From: Verrucomicrobiales bacterium
GTDB lineage: Bacteria; Verrucomicrobiota; Verrucomicrobiia; Verrucomicrobiales; DEV007
Length of the DNA: 55,124 nucleotides
Direction: 5' to 3'
NCBI GenBank assembly: GCA_024638765.1
Contig: JAHEJT010000016.1
Coordinates: 1 to 55,124, forward strand
Shown: positions 9,430-45,551 of the stretch, piece by piece
Position numbering within the stretch: the first letter of the stretch is position 1
How the letters are laid out: the number at the start of each line of letters is the position of its first letter
Made by a program: the position numbers and the translations under genes
The notes under the pieces: model-generated
Told to the model about the DNA's origin: nothing
The model's database searches: none
The model's input: only the letters and a program-made list of their open reading frames with translations

Positions 9430-11376
9430 ATGCCTGAGGAGAATGAGAGCCCGGAGGAGGATTCCTCTCCAGGAAGCGGTCTCCCCCTGCCGGAGGTGAG
9501 ATCCCCTGTCGACGTCAAGAGTCTCCCCGAGGAAGATCTTCCCCTGCTGGCTCAGCGCATCCGCGAAGTTCTCATCGATTGCCTTTCGAAGACCGGGGGA
9601 CACCTCGGGCCCAACCTGGGTGTCGTGGAATTGACTTTGGCATTGCACCGGGTTTTTGAGACTCCGAAAGACAAGTTTGTCTTCGATGTGAGTCACCAGG
9701 GATATGTGCACAAAATGCTCACGGGGCGATGGGATCGGATTGACACCATCCGGCAATACCAGGGACTTAACGGGTTCCTGTTGCGATCCGAGAGCGCACA
9801 CGATGCTTACGGTGCCGGTCACGCCGGCACGGCCCTGTCCGCCGCGCTGGGCATGGCTGCGGCGCGGGATCTCAATGGAAGTGACGAACAGGTAGTCGCG
9901 GTGGCGGGCGACGCCGCCTTCACCTGCGGACCCAGTTACGAGGCGCTCAACAACATCGCCTCGGCCACCAAGAAGTTCATTGTCGTCCTAAACGACAACG
10001 AATGGTCAATCGGGCCCAATGTCGGCGCCATTGCGCGTTACCTAAACGAACTGCAAACCCATAGCGCTTACGCGCATCTTCATGAGAAAGCCGCGGCCTT
10101 CGTGGAGAAACTGATGGGTAAGTCCGTGCGTAAGCTGGCGGCCAAAGTCGAAGAAAGCGCCAAGAGCCTGCTCTTGCCGAGCGTTATCTTCGAGGAATTC
10201 GGCCTTCGCTATTACGGCCCTATCGATGGTCACGACCTTCCTTTGCTGATCAAGACCTTCGAGTTTCTCAAGGAACAGGAAGACCCGGTTCTCCTTCATA
10301 TCATTACCGAGAAAGGCCGGGGTTATAAACCCGCCCTGGAAAACCCGATGAAGTTTCACGGGCTTGGGCCTTACAAGACCGAAACCGGGGAAACGCCGCC
10401 CTCCGGGCAGGCGACCTATTCCCAGATCTTTGCCGAGACCGTGGCCCGCTACGCGAAGGATGACGAAAAGGTCGTCGCCATAACGGCTGCGATGCCAAAT
10501 GGCACCGGCCTGGTGCATTTTCAAAAGGAAATCCCGGAGCGTTATTTCGATGTGGGGATCGCGGAGGAACATGCGGCACTGTTCGCGTGCGGACTGGCGA
10601 CCCAGGGGATTAAACCTTTCCTCACGATTTACTCGACCTTTTTCCAGCGGGCTTACGACATGGCGATTCACGACATCGGCATTCAGAATCTCCCGGTCCG
10701 TTTGTGCATGGATCGCGCGGGATTATCCGGAGACGACGGCCCCACGCATCACGGCCTTTTCGATATTGGATATCTTCGGCATCTGCCTAACTGGGTGCTC
10801 ATGCAGCCGAAGGACGAGGATGAGTTCGCGGATATGCTCTGGACGATGACAAATTACGACGGTGGCCCCAGCGCGATCCGCTATCCGCGTGGAGCCGGGG
10901 TTGGCGCGAGTCCCAAGAGCACGCCGGAACTCCTTGAAATCGGCAAAGCCGAGGTTGTCGCCGACGGCAAAGATGTGGCCCTCTTCGGTTTGGGCAATCT
11001 CTTTGAGCTTGCCGAGGAAGCCAGGGAGAAACTCGAAGAGAAAGGATATTCCGTGGCCCTTATCAATCCGCGCTGGATCAAACCCTTGGACGCAGAGTGC
11101 GTCGAGCACTATGCCAAAAACTGTGCGGTTATTTGCACTTTCGAAGATCACGTGCTGCACAACGGCTTCGGATGTGCGCTTATCGAACATATCAACGATG
11201 CGAGAATAAATATTCCCGTCGAGCGCGTCGGCTGGCCGGACCAATTCATTGAACACGGCAAGGTTTCCATTCTACGCGAAAAATATGGGATCACCGCGGA
11301 CGCATGCCTGGACAAGGTGCTGCCGCACCTGGAGTCGCGCTCGCGCCCGGAGCGGTCCGCGGTCGAGGTGGGCTGA
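9430..11376 (+). CDS. dxs: 1-deoxy-D-xylulose-5-phosphate synthase
   Basis: This 648-residue thiamine-diphosphate enzyme condenses pyruvate and glyceraldehyde 3-phosphate, the first step of the MEP isoprenoid pathway. Visible motifs are GGHLGPNLGVVELTLALH (about 57-73), FDVSHQGYVHKMLTGR (85-100), the cofactor motif at 160-190 ending in LNDNEWSIGPNVGA, YYGPIDGHDLPLL, and the transketolase-like central and C-terminal domains (GIAEEHAALFACGLA, DRAGLSGDDGPTHHG). The cofactor motif reads GDA (160-162) instead of the usual GDG, and VGHQ reads VSHQ. A long acidic N-terminal extension (about 35 residues) precedes the domain. It follows xseB by five bases and ends 13 bases from the convergent SDR gene. 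Confidence 0.93.
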   Translation: MPEENESPEEDSSPGSGLPLPEVRSPVDVKSLPEEDLPLLAQRIREVLIDCLSKTGGHLGPNLGVVELTLALHRVFETPKDKFVFDVSHQGYVHKMLTGRWDRIDTIRQYQGLNGFLLRSESAHDAYGAGHAGTALSAALGMAAARDLNGSDEQVVAVAGDAAFTCGPSYEALNNIASATKKFIVVLNDNEWSIGPNVGAIARYLNELQTHSAYAHLHEKAAAFVEKLMGKSVRKLAAKVEESAKSLLLPSVIFEEFGLRYYGPIDGHDLPLLIKTFEFLKEQEDPVLLHIITEKGRGYKPALENPMKFHGLGPYKTETGETPPSGQATYSQIFAETVARYAKDDEKVVAITAAMPNGTGLVHFQKEIPERYFDVGIAEEHAALFACGLATQGIKPFLTIYSTFFQRAYDMAIHDIGIQNLPVRLCMDRAGLSGDDGPTHHGLFDIGYLRHLPNWVLMQPKDEDEFADMLWTMTNYDGGPSAIRYPRGAGVGASPKSTPELLEIGKAEVVADGKDVALFGLGNLFELAEEAREKLEEKGYSVALINPRWIKPLDAECVEHYAKNCAVICTFEDHVLHNGFGCALIEHINDARINIPVERVGWPDQFIEHGKVSILREKYGITADACLDKVLPHLESRSRPERSAVEVG

Positions 11377-11389
11377 GCCGGGCGCGCGC

Positions 11390-12259
11390 CTAGAGCTGCC
11401 GGGTGATTGAAGGAACCAGTGCCGCATCTCGGAGGATGGCATCCTTGAAGCTGGAATAGCACGTCTTCCACCCCAGGCCTTTTAGCTTGGCATTGGAGAT
11501 GCACTTGTCAGTCCAGCCGCGTTTGCGATTGAGGTCGCGGGGGCCGGATGGCGGGAGCGGTTTTTCGAAATGTCCGGCGAGGAACGCGTAGCATTCTTTC
11601 TGGGTAAGGGGCGCGTCGTCACAGACATTATAAACGTGACCGGGGGCTTCGGGGGAATTCAGGAGGAGGATTACAGCGCTCACGATGTCGTCCCGGTGGA
11701 CCTGGTTCAGATGGCGCGCGCCGTCGTCCTCGATGACCGCTTCACCGGCGAGGAATTTTTTCAGAATCACGGAGCGTTCGGGGCCGTAAATACCGGCAAG
11801 CCTGGCGACGATACCGCCGCCCGCTAGGACGAGGTCTTCCGTCTCGCGCAGGATTCGTCCGGTGTCGCGATCCGGGGCAGCGGGGGAGTCCTCGGTGACG
11901 GTTTCCCCGCCGCGCTGAGCGTAGACACTGGTGCTCGAGGTGAATAGAAGCTTTCCGGGTTCAAGAATCTCGAGGAGATTGCGTGCGCCTTCGAGATAAA
12001 CGGCGCGGTAAACATCCGCGCCACCGCGGCCGGAACTCGCGCAATGGATTACAGACTGGGGGCCGGAGATGCGGGACTTTAATGTGCGGATGTCGTCCGC
12101 GCTCGAGATGTCACAGGCGAACACAGGGAACGGCTTGGCGGCGTCGAGAGCTGCGGCGGATTCCGGGGACAGGGTCAGGCCGGCGACCTCCTCGCCCGAT
12201 TCGTGGAGGCGGTCGGCGAGGGCTTCTCCGAGGTAGCCGAGGCCGGCGATGAGCATCAT
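11390..12259 (-). CDS. NAD-dependent epimerase/dehydratase family protein (SDR)
   Basis: With the start at 12259 (MMLIAGLGYLGEALADRL) the protein has 289 residues, beginning directly with the Rossmann strand and the glycine motif GLGYLG. An upstream in-frame start would add 15 residues lying over a palindrome and is unlikely. Further SDR features are VIHCASSG, LLFTSSTSVYAQRGG, VARLAGIYGPER and LNQVHRDDIVSAVILLL. The classical YxxxK is not seen (YAQRG instead), so the enzyme may be an atypical extended SDR of the YeeZ type. The substrate is unknown. It is convergent with dxs and lies downstream of the amidase gene on the same strand with a 70-base gap. Confidence 0.82.
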   Translation of the reverse strand: MMLIAGLGYLGEALADRLHESGEEVAGLTLSPESAAALDAAKPFPVFACDISSADDIRTLKSRISGPQSVIHCASSGRGGADVYRAVYLEGARNLLEILEPGKLLFTSSTSVYAQRGGETVTEDSPAAPDRDTGRILRETEDLVLAGGGIVARLAGIYGPERSVILKKFLAGEAVIEDDGARHLNQVHRDDIVSAVILLLNSPEAPGHVYNVCDDAPLTQKECYAFLAGHFEKPLPPSGPRDLNRKRGWTDKCISNAKLKGLGWKTCYSSFKDAILRDAALVPSITRQL

Positions 12260-40223: not shown

Positions 40224-41927
40224 ATGTCTCCCCCAGCACTGAAACTCCGCCTCGTCCAGGCCTACCGCCTCGCCGTCTTGCTGGGCATTCTCTGGCTCCT
40301 GCGGGCGCAGCATGAATGGGTCGCCGCCCAGCGCGGGGTCCCGGTCCTCGCTTTCGAGGAGGTGCAGGGGTTTTACTCCGAAGGAGCCCGGCTCGGCGCG
40401 GTCAATCCGGACACCGGTGGTCAGGTCGTCTTCGATCGGAAAGAACGCGAAGTCGGATTCGTCATCCAGACGTCGCCGCACAGCGACGGAATCGTGGGGT
40501 ATTCCGGACCTACAAATACCTTGATCGCTTTCGATGAGGAAAGCCGAATCATTGGAGCGAAAGTGCTCCGCAGCGGCGACACGCCGGACCACCTGGACCT
40601 CGTGCTCGATGACCCCGGGTTTCTGGCGTCTTACGAAGGGCGCACTTGGGAGGAGGCCGGGCAAGCGAGCGATGTCGACGGTGTCAGCGGTGCGACTCTC
40701 ACGAGTCTCGCGATCCGGGAGGGAATTCTCTTCCGGCTCGCCGGAGAACGCGTCAATCTGCGCTTTCCCGATTCGATTACGTTGGAGGAAGCGCGCGAGA
40801 TCTTCCCCGAGGCACTGCGATTGGAACCCATGCGCGGGCGGCGGGAATCCTTCGTTGTGATTGGCGCAGGGGATCGCGTCGTGGGGCACCTCCTGCGCAC
40901 CGGTCATCTCGCCGACCGCGTGCAGGGATACAAGGGTCCGACCGATGTCCTCATCGCTCTCGATGAAACGGGGGAAACCGTGATGACGGTACGGATTCGA
41001 TCGAGTTACGATACGCCCGAGTACGTCCGGGACGTGGCGCGGGACCGTCATTACCGGGCCAAGTTCGAAGGACAGGCAGTCGCCTCGGTGGCGGATATCG
41101 ATCTCGAGTCAGGAGAAATCGAGGGAGTCAGCGGCGCGACGATGACGAGCCTGGCCATGGTGGAAAGTGTGCGCGAAGCGCTACGGGAATGGCGTGCGGA
41201 AGCGCCGGATAGTGGCGGCGGCCTGCGTTTTGCGGCACGGGACGCGGGCCTGGTAATTGTCATCGTATTGGGGCTGCTGATGGCGTTCACGGATTTGCAT
41301 GGCCGGAAAACGTTGCGGCGCGTCTACCAGGTTGGATTGATTGTTTACTTGGGATTCATCAGCGGCGATATGCTCGCGCAGGCGTTGCTGCTCGGGTGGA
41401 CGCAAAGCGGGATTGCCTGGAGCACGGCGCCGGGCCTGGTGCTGCTGGTAGCGGCTTCGTTCCTGGTGCCGGCGGCGACCGGCCGGCAAGTCTACTGCCA
41501 TCACATTTGCCCGCACGGCGCCGCACAGCAGCTTTTGATGCGCTGGGTGCCCAAGAAGTGGCGGCTTTCCCTTCCCCACGCGCTTGCGCGGATCGGTGAA
41601 CGCGGACTTCCGATGCTGCTCCTGTTCTGGGTGCTTCTTGTCGGGATGCTGGGGCTTGGATTTGATCTCGCCGGTATCGAGCCCTTCGATGCTTACATCG
41701 TGCGTGCCGCAGGGATCGCGACGATTGCCGTATTTGTGATAGGCCTTTTGGTGTCCGCCTTCGTGCCCATGGCGTACTGTCGCTTCGGCTGTCCGACAGG
41801 GCGCCTGCTCGAGTTCGTCCGGTTCCGGCGCGGCGGCGAGCATTTTGGCAGGCGGGAAATTCTTGGTGGAGTGTTTCTCGTGATTGCGGTGGGGCTGTAC
41901 TTGGGAAGGGAGTTCTTCTTCTCGTGA
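40224..41927 (+). CDS. Membrane protein with two FMN-binding (flavinylation) domains and NosR/NapH-like polyferredoxin region
   Basis: The 567-residue protein starts with a signal/anchor helix (LAVLLGILWLLR) followed by two periplasmic FMN_bind domains. Each has the covalent flavinylation motif of NqrC/RnfG/NosR proteins: SGATLTS (155-161, flavinyl site T160) and SGATMTS (303-309, T308). Then come about five membrane helices and two cysteine clusters, CHHICP (C425, C429) and CRFGCP (C519, C523). In NosR/NapH these sites are CxxxCP and bind 4Fe-4S clusters, but with additional cysteines; here only two per site are seen, so the cluster type is uncertain. It probably moves electrons between the membrane and periplasm through two covalently bound FMNs. 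The next gene is the flavin transferase apbE, overlapping by four bases. Confidence 0.9.
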   Translation: MSPPALKLRLVQAYRLAVLLGILWLLRAQHEWVAAQRGVPVLAFEEVQGFYSEGARLGAVNPDTGGQVVFDRKEREVGFVIQTSPHSDGIVGYSGPTNTLIAFDEESRIIGAKVLRSGDTPDHLDLVLDDPGFLASYEGRTWEEAGQASDVDGVSGATLTSLAIREGILFRLAGERVNLRFPDSITLEEAREIFPEALRLEPMRGRRESFVVIGAGDRVVGHLLRTGHLADRVQGYKGPTDVLIALDETGETVMTVRIRSSYDTPEYVRDVARDRHYRAKFEGQAVASVADIDLESGEIEGVSGATMTSLAMVESVREALREWRAEAPDSGGGLRFAARDAGLVIVIVLGLLMAFTDLHGRKTLRRVYQVGLIVYLGFISGDMLAQALLLGWTQSGIAWSTAPGLVLLVAASFLVPAATGRQVYCHHICPHGAAQQLLMRWVPKKWRLSLPHALARIGERGLPMLLLFWVLLVGMLGLGFDLAGIEPFDAYIVRAAGIATIAVFVIGLLVSAFVPMAYCRFGCPTGRLLEFVRFRRGGEHFGRREILGGVFLVIAVGLYLGREFFFS

Positions 41928-43051
41928 AACCTGTAGGTGCGAGCGTGAGCGAGTACCTGGACGGGGTGAAGGCTGCGAGAGCGGGTAATCGCTCACGCTC
42001 GCACCTACATCGTCTCGGAGCAGTCTTACTGGTTCTCCTGGCGATTTCGGGATGCCAGAAACGCAATACGGCGCCACCCCTGGACAAAAGAGCCATTCTC
42101 AGCGGCGCCGCCATGGGAACCACCTGGCGCGTAACGGTGTCCCGGCAACTCACCGAAAAAGCGCACGACGAGTTGCGCGAAGCCGTCACCGCGCGGCTCG
42201 AGGAGATTGAGGCAAAAATGTCGCACTGGCGGGAAGACTCGGAGGTGTCGGTTTTCAATCGGGCGGGCGCCATCGCGCGTGTCGAAGTATCGGAGGAGAC
42301 GGCATGGGTGGTGGCGTTTGCGCAGGAAATGCGCGTGCAGTCGCGAGGCGCCTTCGATGTCACGGTGGCGACCGAAGTCGCAGCACGTGGGTTCGGGCCG
42401 GAGTCGCTACGGCCGGCTGCAGAGGAAAATGTGCCGCGCGGAGGAGGAGGAGAACACCTCCAGGTCTCCACCGAGCCGCCGTTTCTGCTGAAGGAGCTCG
42501 GCGGGCTTGCCATCGATTTGTCGGGGGTGGCCAAGGGATACGCGGTGGACCAGGTGGCGGCGCTGCTCGACGCGAAGAGATTTGAAAATTACCTGGTGGA
42601 ACTCGGCGGCGAACTCAAGGGCCGGGGCCGCGCGCCGGACGGCGATTGGTGGGCCATCGGGTTGGAGAATCCCGATCCACTCGGCCGGAAAGCTCCGGTG
42701 GCGGTGGAACTGCGCAACGAAGCGATCGCGACTTCGGGCAATTACCGGTTGTTTCGACAGGACGCAGACGGGGGCATCCGGTCGCACTTGATCGATCCGC
42801 GCTCGGAAAAAGATCAGGACCAGCTGTTTCGATCGGTGAGCGTGATTCATCCGTCGGCGGCGGAAGCGGATGCGTGGGCCACCGCGCTCTTCGTGATGGG
42901 GGAAGAGGAGGGACTGGCGGTAGCGGCGCGGAGCGGATTGGTGGCCCGGTTTGTCGAATCGCCCAAATCCGGCATGTCTCGCGGCAGATCGACGGCGTCT
43001 TTTGACGAGCGGGAGGTGGTTGGTTCTCGGTTGCCGGTGCAGGAAAAGTAG
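41924..43051 (+). CDS. apbE: FAD:protein FMN transferase, ApbE lipoprotein
   Basis: The 375-residue protein overlaps the preceding stop as GTGA. ApbE attaches FMN from FAD to the Thr of SGATxT motifs; the substrate is most likely the protein just upstream, with two such sites. Family motifs are MGTTWRVTVSR, DLSGVAKGYAVDQVAALL, YLVELGGELKGRGR, TSGNYRLFR, HLIDPRS and AEADAWATALFVMG. The signal peptide ends LLVLLAISGC (lipobox), so it is a periplasm-facing lipoprotein. Residues about 4-28, before the lipobox, are encoded by an inverted pair of REP elements (41933-42008). A later GTG at 41966 would still leave a basic n-region. The TAG stop is the head of another REP pair. Confidence 0.93.
   Translation: MKPVGASVSEYLDGVKAARAGNRSRSHLHRLGAVLLVLLAISGCQKRNTAPPLDKRAILSGAAMGTTWRVTVSRQLTEKAHDELREAVTARLEEIEAKMSHWREDSEVSVFNRAGAIARVEVSEETAWVVAFAQEMRVQSRGAFDVTVATEVAARGFGPESLRPAAEENVPRGGGGEHLQVSTEPPFLLKELGGLAIDLSGVAKGYAVDQVAALLDAKRFENYLVELGGELKGRGRAPDGDWWAIGLENPDPLGRKAPVAVELRNEAIATSGNYRLFRQDADGGIRSHLIDPRSEKDQDQLFRSVSVIHPSAAEADAWATALFVMGEEEGLAVAARSGLVARFVESPKSGMSRGRSTASFDEREVVGSRLPVQEK
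41933..42008. repeat. Inverted pair of 25-base GTAG-REPs (family B) inside apbE
   Basis: Copy 1 (41933-41957) begins GTAGGTGCGAGCGTGAGCGA and ends GTACC. Copy 2 (41984-42008) is inverted and differs in one base of 25. A third copy at 43806-43830 (minus) is identical to copy 1. The pair is translated as the N-terminal region of ApbE if the GTG at 41924 is the start. Confidence 0.9.
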
Positions 43052-43105
43052 CACAGGCATCCTGCCTGTGATTTCTTGAGCAGACAGGCAAGAGGCCCGT
43101 CCTAC
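43048..43105. repeat. GTAG-REP pair (family C) filling the apbE 3' space
   Basis: GTAG-CACAGGC-ATCCT-GCCTGTG (43048-43070) faces an inverted element reading GTAG-GACGGGC-CTCTT-GCCTGTC (43105-43082). The first GTAG contains the TAG stop of apbE; the second begins two bases beyond the TGA stop of the convergent membrane-protein gene. The whole intergenic space is repeat. Confidence 0.85.
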
Positions 43106-43683: not shown

Positions 43684-43826
43684 GGGGATCGGAGTAAAAG
43701 GTGGGAAAGTGAAAGGTAAAAAGTATCATCAACCAGACCGGGCCCAGAATTGCTAAACACTGACTGCTGAAAACTGTTTACTGATTACTGAATACTCGGT
43801 CGCAGGGTACTCGCTCACGCTCGCAC
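43684..43826. other. Intergenic, AT-rich tract and REP
   Basis: Contains ACTGACTGCTGAAAACTG and TTTACTGATTACTGAATACT (43757-43797), a diverged relative of the 17-mer tract at 664, and ends in the family B REP. No gene is seen. Confidence 0.5.
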
Positions 43827-43830
43827 CTAC
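43806..43830 (-). repeat. GTAG-REP family B, third copy
   Basis: On the minus strand it begins GTAGGTGCGAGCGTGAGCGA and ends GTACC, identical in 25 of 25 positions to 41933-41957. Its GTAG contains the TAG stop codon (43829-43827) of the sulfatase gene. Confidence 0.9.
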
Positions 43831-45551
43831 TTCTCTCTTTTCGATTTCCCGGCTGCTTTCTTCTTGTCGCTCCCCGGCCAGGGAAGGACGTGGGCGCGCT
43901 CGGCGTAAGCTTGCCAGAGGGCCGCCATTTGTTCGACTCTCTCCGGTTGCCGCGCTGCCAGGTCTTTCTGTTCGGTGCGATCCTTTTTGAGGTCGTAAAG
44001 TTCCCAGGCGCCATTGCGGCCCTTGGCGACAAGTTTAAGGTCGCCGACCCGGACCGCACGATTGCCTTCGTGTTCCCAGTAAATAGCGGTGCGCTTTTTC
44101 CGAATGAGATTGCCGCCGCCCTCAAATGCGGGCGCCAGGCTCAGGCCTTCCATGGAATGAATTGCCTGATCTCCCTCGTGAAATTTTTCAGGATATTTGG
44201 CGCCGCTGAGATCCACGCAGGTGGCCATGATATCGATGAGATGGCCGGGGGTGTGCTCCAGTTTTCCCAGCAGCTTGGAATCGATCCCGTCTGGCCAATG
44301 TGCGATCAGAGGACTGGAAATACCGCCCTCGTGGACCCAGTGCTTATATTCCCGGAAGGGCGTGTTGGACGCGTTGGCCCATTCGAGCCCGTAAGCCACG
44401 TAGGTATCGGGGGGGCCGGGCATGACGCCGTGACCTCGCCGGAGTCGCTTGCCGTCCCGGGTCTTGAAAGGGACCATGTCGACCTGCAACTCATCGGGTT
44501 TCATGGGCTCGAGCTGCTCGGGCGGGTTGGGATCGCCACGGCTTCCGTTTTCCTCGGCGCAGCCTCCGTTGTCGGCGATGAAAAAAATGAGAGTTTCTTC
44601 GAGTTCGCCGGTGCCCTCGAGGGCCTCGATGATACGGCCAATACCCTGGTCCATCCTGTCGATCATGGCGGCGTAAACTTCCATGCGCCTTTCGAACCAG
44701 GCCTGATCCTCACCGACATCTTCCCAGAGGCGTGCCTTGGGATCACGCGGGGTCAGGGGCCAATCAGGGTTTACCAGCCCCAACTCGATCATGCGCCGAT
44801 GGCGTTGGGCGCGCAGGGCGTCCCAGCCTTCGGAGTACTTTCCCTTGTACTTGGCGATATCGCTCTCACGGGCGTGCATCGGCCAGTGCGGGCAGGTGAA
44901 GGGGACATAGAGAAAGAACGGTTGATCCCCATCATGGAAATGGTGATCGTAAACACAACGCACCGCGAAATCGCAGATCGCGTCGGTGTAATAGAAGTCA
45001 TCCGACACCATCGCCGGCGGAATCTGAGTGTTGTCGAGCGTGAGAGAATTGGGATCGTAAAAACTTCCGGCGCCATGGATGGTGCCGAAGAAACGGTCGA
45101 ACCCGCGCTGCAGCGGCCAGTTGTCTTTGGGGCCGTCAGGCTTAACCTCCTTGGTGACATGCCATTTGCCGGACATGTAAGTGGCGTATCCGGCGGGCTT
45201 GAGAACTTCGGCGACGGTAACGCAGTTGCGATTGAGGTCGCCGCGGTATCCGTCGTGCCCGCGATCGTTCATCATGTGACCGACGCCGGCCTGGTGGGGA
45301 TAAAGGCCGGTCATCAATGAGGCTCGGGTGGGACAGCAGCGGGCAGTGTTGTAAAACTGGGTAAACCGCAGGCCGTTATCCGCAAGACGCTGCAGGTTGG
45401 GGGTCTCGATCTCGCTGCCGTAAGGAGAGATATCGGAGATGCCCATGTCGTCGGCCATCATCAGGATGATGTTGGGCCTTGGCGGCGGAGCCGCAGCGGC
45501 GGTCCAGAGCAGGCAGACCAGAGAGGCGAGAAGTGAGCAGAGGGGTTTCAT
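43827..45551 (-). CDS. Secreted arylsulfatase-type sulfatase (family S1)
   Basis: The 574-residue protein has a signal peptide ending LLWTAAAAPPP, the N-terminal RPNIILMMADDMGISDISPYG with metal aspartates D34/D35, and the formylglycine signature C72-C-P-T-R76 (CCPTRASLMTG). Further family landmarks are YATYMSGKWH, IFFIADNGGCAEEN and the C-terminal GDLKLVAKGRNGAWELYDLKKDRTE. The length and N-terminus resemble arylsulfatase A-type enzymes of PVC bacteria. It is divergent from the DUF4336 gene at 45617. Its stop codon is contributed by the REP at 43806. Confidence 0.94.
   Translation of the reverse strand: MKPLCSLLASLVCLLWTAAAAPPPRPNIILMMADDMGISDISPYGSEIETPNLQRLADNGLRFTQFYNTARCCPTRASLMTGLYPHQAGVGHMMNDRGHDGYRGDLNRNCVTVAEVLKPAGYATYMSGKWHVTKEVKPDGPKDNWPLQRGFDRFFGTIHGAGSFYDPNSLTLDNTQIPPAMVSDDFYYTDAICDFAVRCVYDHHFHDGDQPFFLYVPFTCPHWPMHARESDIAKYKGKYSEGWDALRAQRHRRMIELGLVNPDWPLTPRDPKARLWEDVGEDQAWFERRMEVYAAMIDRMDQGIGRIIEALEGTGELEETLIFFIADNGGCAEENGSRGDPNPPEQLEPMKPDELQVDMVPFKTRDGKRLRRGHGVMPGPPDTYVAYGLEWANASNTPFREYKHWVHEGGISSPLIAHWPDGIDSKLLGKLEHTPGHLIDIMATCVDLSGAKYPEKFHEGDQAIHSMEGLSLAPAFEGGGNLIRKKRTAIYWEHEGNRAVRVGDLKLVAKGRNGAWELYDLKKDRTEQKDLAARQPERVEQMAALWQAYAERAHVLPWPGSDKKKAAGKSKREK

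Follow-up and report, generated by a model that had tools for sequence, protein, structure and literature searches.

Some GTAG REPs lie inside genes, also at their N-termini, and the largest number of GTAG cases comes from Opitutus terrae (Di Nocera et al. 2013, PMC3733652). N-terminal GTAG REP dimers were found to encode 20-30 amino acids, the TAG of the GTAG head is often the stop codon of the neighbouring gene, and different REPs occupy about the same recB site in two Xanthomonas species (PMC3733652). Intragenic and N-terminal GTAG REPs, as well as TAG stops supplied by REPs, have therefore been known since 2013, and the same authors considered that many N-terminal REPs are possibly untranslated, as a later start may be used (PMC3733652).

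The repeat reported here, located in the leader of an apbE gene, can be likened by its features to these GTAG REPs: it has a GTAG head, forms an imperfect palindrome, occurs in dimers, occupies intragenic and N-terminal sites and supplies TAG stops. Unlike the N-terminal cases described by Di Nocera et al. (PMC3733652), apbE has no ATG, GTG or TTG between the REP and the lipobox. The close inverted pair, the high copy number and a Y1 gene flanked by the same REP are also features of REPINs and REP doublets with RAYTs (PMC3116915, PMC2817692), although mobility is only presumed here and just one of several Y1_Tnp genes is clearly flanked by this REP family. Rickettsia palindromic elements (RPEs) are described as palindromic repeats which are likewise found in frame in protein genes and which are translated, as is very likely for the ApbE leader (PMC3733652, PMC10969869). 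RPEs are longer (~150 bp) and are described as modifying the product by translational fusion (PMC10969869), whereas the peptide in the ApbE leader is expected to be cleaved. No earlier description of REPs in signal peptides was found in the open literature, a scope outside which most subscription journals fall. The new elements are that the absence of a later start makes translation of an N-terminal REP very likely, a point which the literature leaves open, and that cleavage of the leader is suggested as a simple reason for which a REP peptide is tolerated.

The REP family and the dimer in apbE

The window, the whole stretch of 55,124 nt, corresponds to contig C275; the genome comprises 5.4 Mb in 309 contigs. 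The relevant features are:

40224..41927, + strand: FMN_bind/Fer4_5 gene preceding apbE in the operon; its stop TGA and the apbE start share bases (GTGA)
41924..43051, + strand: apbE, lipoprotein FMN transferase of 375 amino acids with a Pfam ApbE match; its GTG start overlaps the upstream TGA
41932..42009, + strand: REP dimer in the apbE frame, a head-out inverted pair of 26 + 26 + 26 nt = 78 nt
41933..41957, + strand: left REP copy, family consensus GTAGGTGCGAGCGTGAGCGAGTAC; read as VGASVSEY if GTG 41924 is used
41958..41983, + strand: spacer between the REPs, read as LDGVKAARA; holds the in-frame GTG 41966, a possible alternative start
41984..42008, - strand: right REP copy with one substitution, read as GNRSRSHL(H) right before the hydrophobic stretch
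42011..42055, + strand: rest of the leader, RLGAVLLVLLAISGC, with hydrophobic stretch and lipobox and no in-frame ATG, GTG or TTG
43806..43830, - strand: third REP copy in the window, supplying the TAG at which the sulfatase gene 43827-45551 stops

The arms of the dimer (41932-41957 and 41984-42009, 26 nt each) are separated by a gap of 26 nt and are 96% complementary. The right REP departs from the consensus by a single change, GAGTAC to GATTAC, and the third copy is 100% complementary to the left one. The repeat is of the GTAG-headed type with 24-25 nt, and as in the 20-40 nt imperfect palindromes of GTAG REPs, the GTAG is accompanied by a stem with an internal mismatch and a 4-nt loop. The predicted fold of a single REP is -10.0 kcal/mol as RNA (z -3.2) and is weak as DNA (-2.7, z -0.9). 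Genome-wide, 135 copies of GTAGGTGCGAGCGTGAGCGAGTAC were found at ≤3 mismatches and none of the reversed control, while 58 other genomes of the family yielded a single match in only one genome (≤2 mismatches). Arm complementarity and copy number confirm the starting observation of the first-pass annotation, namely that the apbE leader contains two inverted 25-base REPs, placed after the GTG start and before the lipobox.

The genomic context was analysed on stretches with 121 copies (≤4 mismatches) in 56 clusters, a part of the full set, with genes called by a home-made codon score rather than by a gene finder. A simple +- pair, the inverted arrangement of REPINs and BIMEs, was observed in 24 of the 56 clusters. 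The 33 +- pairs found in total fall into three length classes of 14, 11 and 8 pairs, and both in-frame leader pairs belong to one class, a number too small to weigh. The location is mostly extragenic and close to 3' ends: of the 67 genes with a 3' end near the 56 clusters, 47 terminate before or at the REP, and 4 continue past it. Read-through at L075, L086 and L110 was set aside, as these are probably antisense frames. In 16 of the 67, the stop falls exactly on the TAG of the GTAG head. One of these is the sulfatase gene, so that the third copy, previously annotated as intergenic, is not purely so. The Y1_Tnp domain has 18 matches in the genome. One of them, a weak match at C114:11534-11689 (E=1.6e-4, above the Pfam cut-off), belongs to a Y1 gene located between REPs at 10949-11162 and 11801-11898 (L078:2550-3499), as in a REPtron. 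By all features tested, the GTAGGTGCGAGCGTGAGCGAGTAC repeat is a RAYT-associated GTAG REP family.

The length of the dimer had been given as 76 bases, from which it was concluded that the original start may have differed. This length is right for the bare G..C core. The unit from T to A is 78 nt, a multiple of three, and T precedes 45 of 90 outer element ends genome-wide, against a T background of 20%. As the unit with its flanking T and A corresponds to 26 codons, no shift of the start is needed. Accordingly, in silico deletion of 41932-42009 restores a normal lipoprotein leader, VKPRLGAVLLVLLAISGC, from the same GTG, which argues against a different original start. If GTAG were instead a retained target site, the insertion would be of 72 nt and the leader VKPVDRLGAVLLVLLAISGC, also in frame; GTAG has, however, been described as a guide, and the reported cleavage sites of TnpAREP are CT or CA near the element (PMC8266576). 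The exact boundary of the insertion is not fixable from one sequence.

Translation of the leader and comparison with orthologues

The ApbE domain is well recognised (PF02424, E=2.4e-68, 231 bits), and a lipobox, LGAVLLVLLAISGC, read by eye from the translation, follows the hydrophobic stretch. The upstream flavoprotein (FMN_bind/Fer4_5) is a plausible substrate of the enzyme. At the level of the sequence, the frame is open from the GTG through both REPs, where the left arm, spacer and right arm are followed by HRLGAVLLVLLAISGC, to the lipobox and an intact ApbE domain downstream.

From codon 42011 to the lipobox Cys at 42053, no ATG, GTG or TTG was found in frame. It follows that export of ApbE requires translation of the right REP at least; if initiation took place beyond this REP, the leader would be lost and the periplasmic flavin transferase would stay unexported. 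A start downstream of 42009 was thus rejected for an exported protein, which largely removes one objection foreseen in the first-pass annotation, a true start beyond 42008. A rare CTG start at 42029 or 42038 was discarded as well, as the leader would be far too short. Three GTG codons were scored for their Shine-Dalgarno match: 41924 (-7.9 kcal/mol), 41945 (-3.7 kcal/mol) and 41966 (-6.0 kcal/mol). GTG 41945, which lies inside the left arm, has the poorest match, and the choice would remain mainly between GTG 41924, with both arms translated, and GTG 41966, with the right arm only. Translation of the N-terminal REP of apbE is, on these grounds, very likely.

Orthologues with an FMN_bind/Fer4_5-type gene upstream, in or near the same operon context, were compared; none belongs to the same genus, and GTDB genome contigs, searched for a closer relative, yielded only distant ApbE proteins. 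Among those with an unambiguous start and lipobox Cys, the leaders of G017, G010, G199 and G107 comprise 19, 15, 20 and 27 residues up to this Cys, respectively, versus 44 here. The leader of G027 would have 43 residues if the first start is used; later in-frame starts exist, so its length is uncertain. The REP-coded residues are shared by none of the operon orthologues compared, which also do not have the REP sequence. This points to an insertion rather than to a conserved protein segment, and selection on the protein, the other objection that had been foreseen, was rejected for the same reason. Together with the absence of a start after the right REP, it upholds the view that the n-region of this lipoprotein's leader derives its coding sequence from a palindrome pair of the mobile type.

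In the orthologue of G026, a genome belonging to another family of the order, the leader counts 54 residues up to the lipobox Cys. This leader (G026:C8, L014:1369-1570) contains a dispersed palindromic repeat of another kind, ACAGGCTTTCAGCCTGT...ACAGGCATTCTGCCTGT, which is matched 48 times in the G026 genome, and no start was found between this repeat and the lipobox except a GTG inside the repeat. Judging from these two leaders, that of apbE has been hit twice, independently, by unrelated repeats. One coincidence does not prove a preference for this leader.

Proposed origin of the leader and alternatives

Given the repeat family, its site, the open frame, the absence from orthologues and the fact that no further start precedes the lipobox, we consider it likely that a GTAG REP dimer entered apbE in frame, directly behind codon 3 and thus in the n-region of the signal peptide. 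The dimer is REPIN-like and was probably moved by a RAYT. GTG 41924 would have remained the start, with its translation coupled to termination of the preceding flavoprotein gene. In this way, the 26 codons of the REP unit would have become part of the ApbE leader. The peptide may be tolerated because an n-region needs little beyond a net positive charge, and that read from GTG 41924 is indeed net positive (K+R 6, D+E 2). Signal peptidase II is predicted to cut before Cys44, which would discard the whole peptide and leave the mature enzyme unchanged; this removal could explain why the insertion survived.

The hairpin formed by the dimer probably affects the expression of apbE. The RNA from 41920 to 42015 is predicted to fold into a hairpin of -58.8 kcal/mol (z -8.4), which begins 8-9 nt past the first base of the apbE GTG. 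Among ~32 gene starts in the window, the region from -30 to +120 of apbE has the lowest folding energy (-76.2; the mean is -45.2). Of 1100 150-mers scanned, 4 fold as well or better, some of them perhaps overlapping the apbE hairpin. Some loss of initiation at apbE is likely according to these models, and attenuation of ApbE by the hairpin is plausible and agrees with the folding. The long hairpin after the start would thus probably lower ApbE output modestly, and translational coupling may help ribosomes through it, offsetting the lost initiation.

By its strength and position, this hairpin could also be a selected regulatory element lowering ApbE relative to its flavoprotein substrate, rather than a tolerated passenger. 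The apbE start having the lowest energy of the gene starts, the unrelated palindromic repeat in the same leader of the G026 orthologue, and a report that REPs near the stop codon lower translation in E. coli (PMC12306157) point in the same direction. However, the two orthologous leaders carry unrelated elements, no such element is present in the other operon orthologues, and REPs of the GTAGGTGCGAGCGTGAGCGAGTAC family adjoin many unrelated genes, so that we regard selected regulation as quite improbable. Translation from the spacer GTG 41966 is somewhat less so, while still unlikely. It would give MKAARAGNRSRSHLHRLGAVLLVLLAISGC, leaving the left arm untranslated for apbE and only the right arm coding, and the insertion would have supplied a new start codon. 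This GTG is in frame with a moderate Shine-Dalgarno match, not far behind that of GTG 41924, and the resulting n-region is devoid of acidic residues (K+R 5, D+E 0). At another locus of the genome, L084, an ATG between two paired REPs is the sole start from which a leader of sufficient length could be read. Yet GTG 41924 shares bases with the upstream TGA, its Shine-Dalgarno match is the better of the two, the orthologue of G027 also begins in an overlap (ATGGTGA), and GTG 41966 lies inside the structured loop of the full hairpin.

An assembly artefact, in which two draft contigs were joined at a repeated REP, is very improbable. The genome is fragmented into 309 contigs, some of which end in a REP (e.g. 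C77 at its REP cluster), but the genes on either side of the dimer are also neighbours in other genomes of the order, and the frame is unbroken from the GTG through the REPs to the lipobox.

REPs in other leaders of the genome

In-frame insertion after a start codon, the reading we favour for apbE, has counterparts in the same genome. The gene of an OprD-like porin (L070:1055-2551, - strand; Pfam E=1.6e-36) carries an in-frame REP pair in the n-region of its signal peptide, after the ATG and ahead of the hydrophobic stretch, and no start codon was found between the pair and this stretch. In L102, which encodes a PSCyt1/WD40 protein, one REP occupies the corresponding position, at a TGATG junction. 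The L084 gene, whose product has no Pfam match and whose likely start is the spacer ATG mentioned above, probably contains a leader insertion as well. As leader cases are more readily recognised by the method than cytosolic ones, the four leader cases do not establish an enrichment.

We tentatively suggest, as a possibility that falls short of being probable, that n-regions of signal peptides, especially at translation-coupled junctions, may be a recurrent safe harbour in which palindromic mobile elements persist as coding DNA, since the peptide would be discarded; the independent hits of the apbE leader by unrelated repeats in two families of one order would fit this idea. Should this hold in genomes generally, one could predict that short mobile palindromes enter genes through secretion leaders, and choosing start codons so as to trim off REPs would shorten genuine leaders in annotations.

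Two further observations concern repeats at gene 3' ends. A protein which by eye is response-regulator-like ends in VAASVSE*, its C-terminus being encoded by a REP (L073:2401-2424, + strand). A second repeat family, ACAGGCATCCTGCCTGT, with 110 genome matches (≤2 mismatches), is present at 43053-43069 and starts beside the apbE stop; a motif like ACAGGCATCCTGCCTGT is the repeat in the apbE leader of G026.
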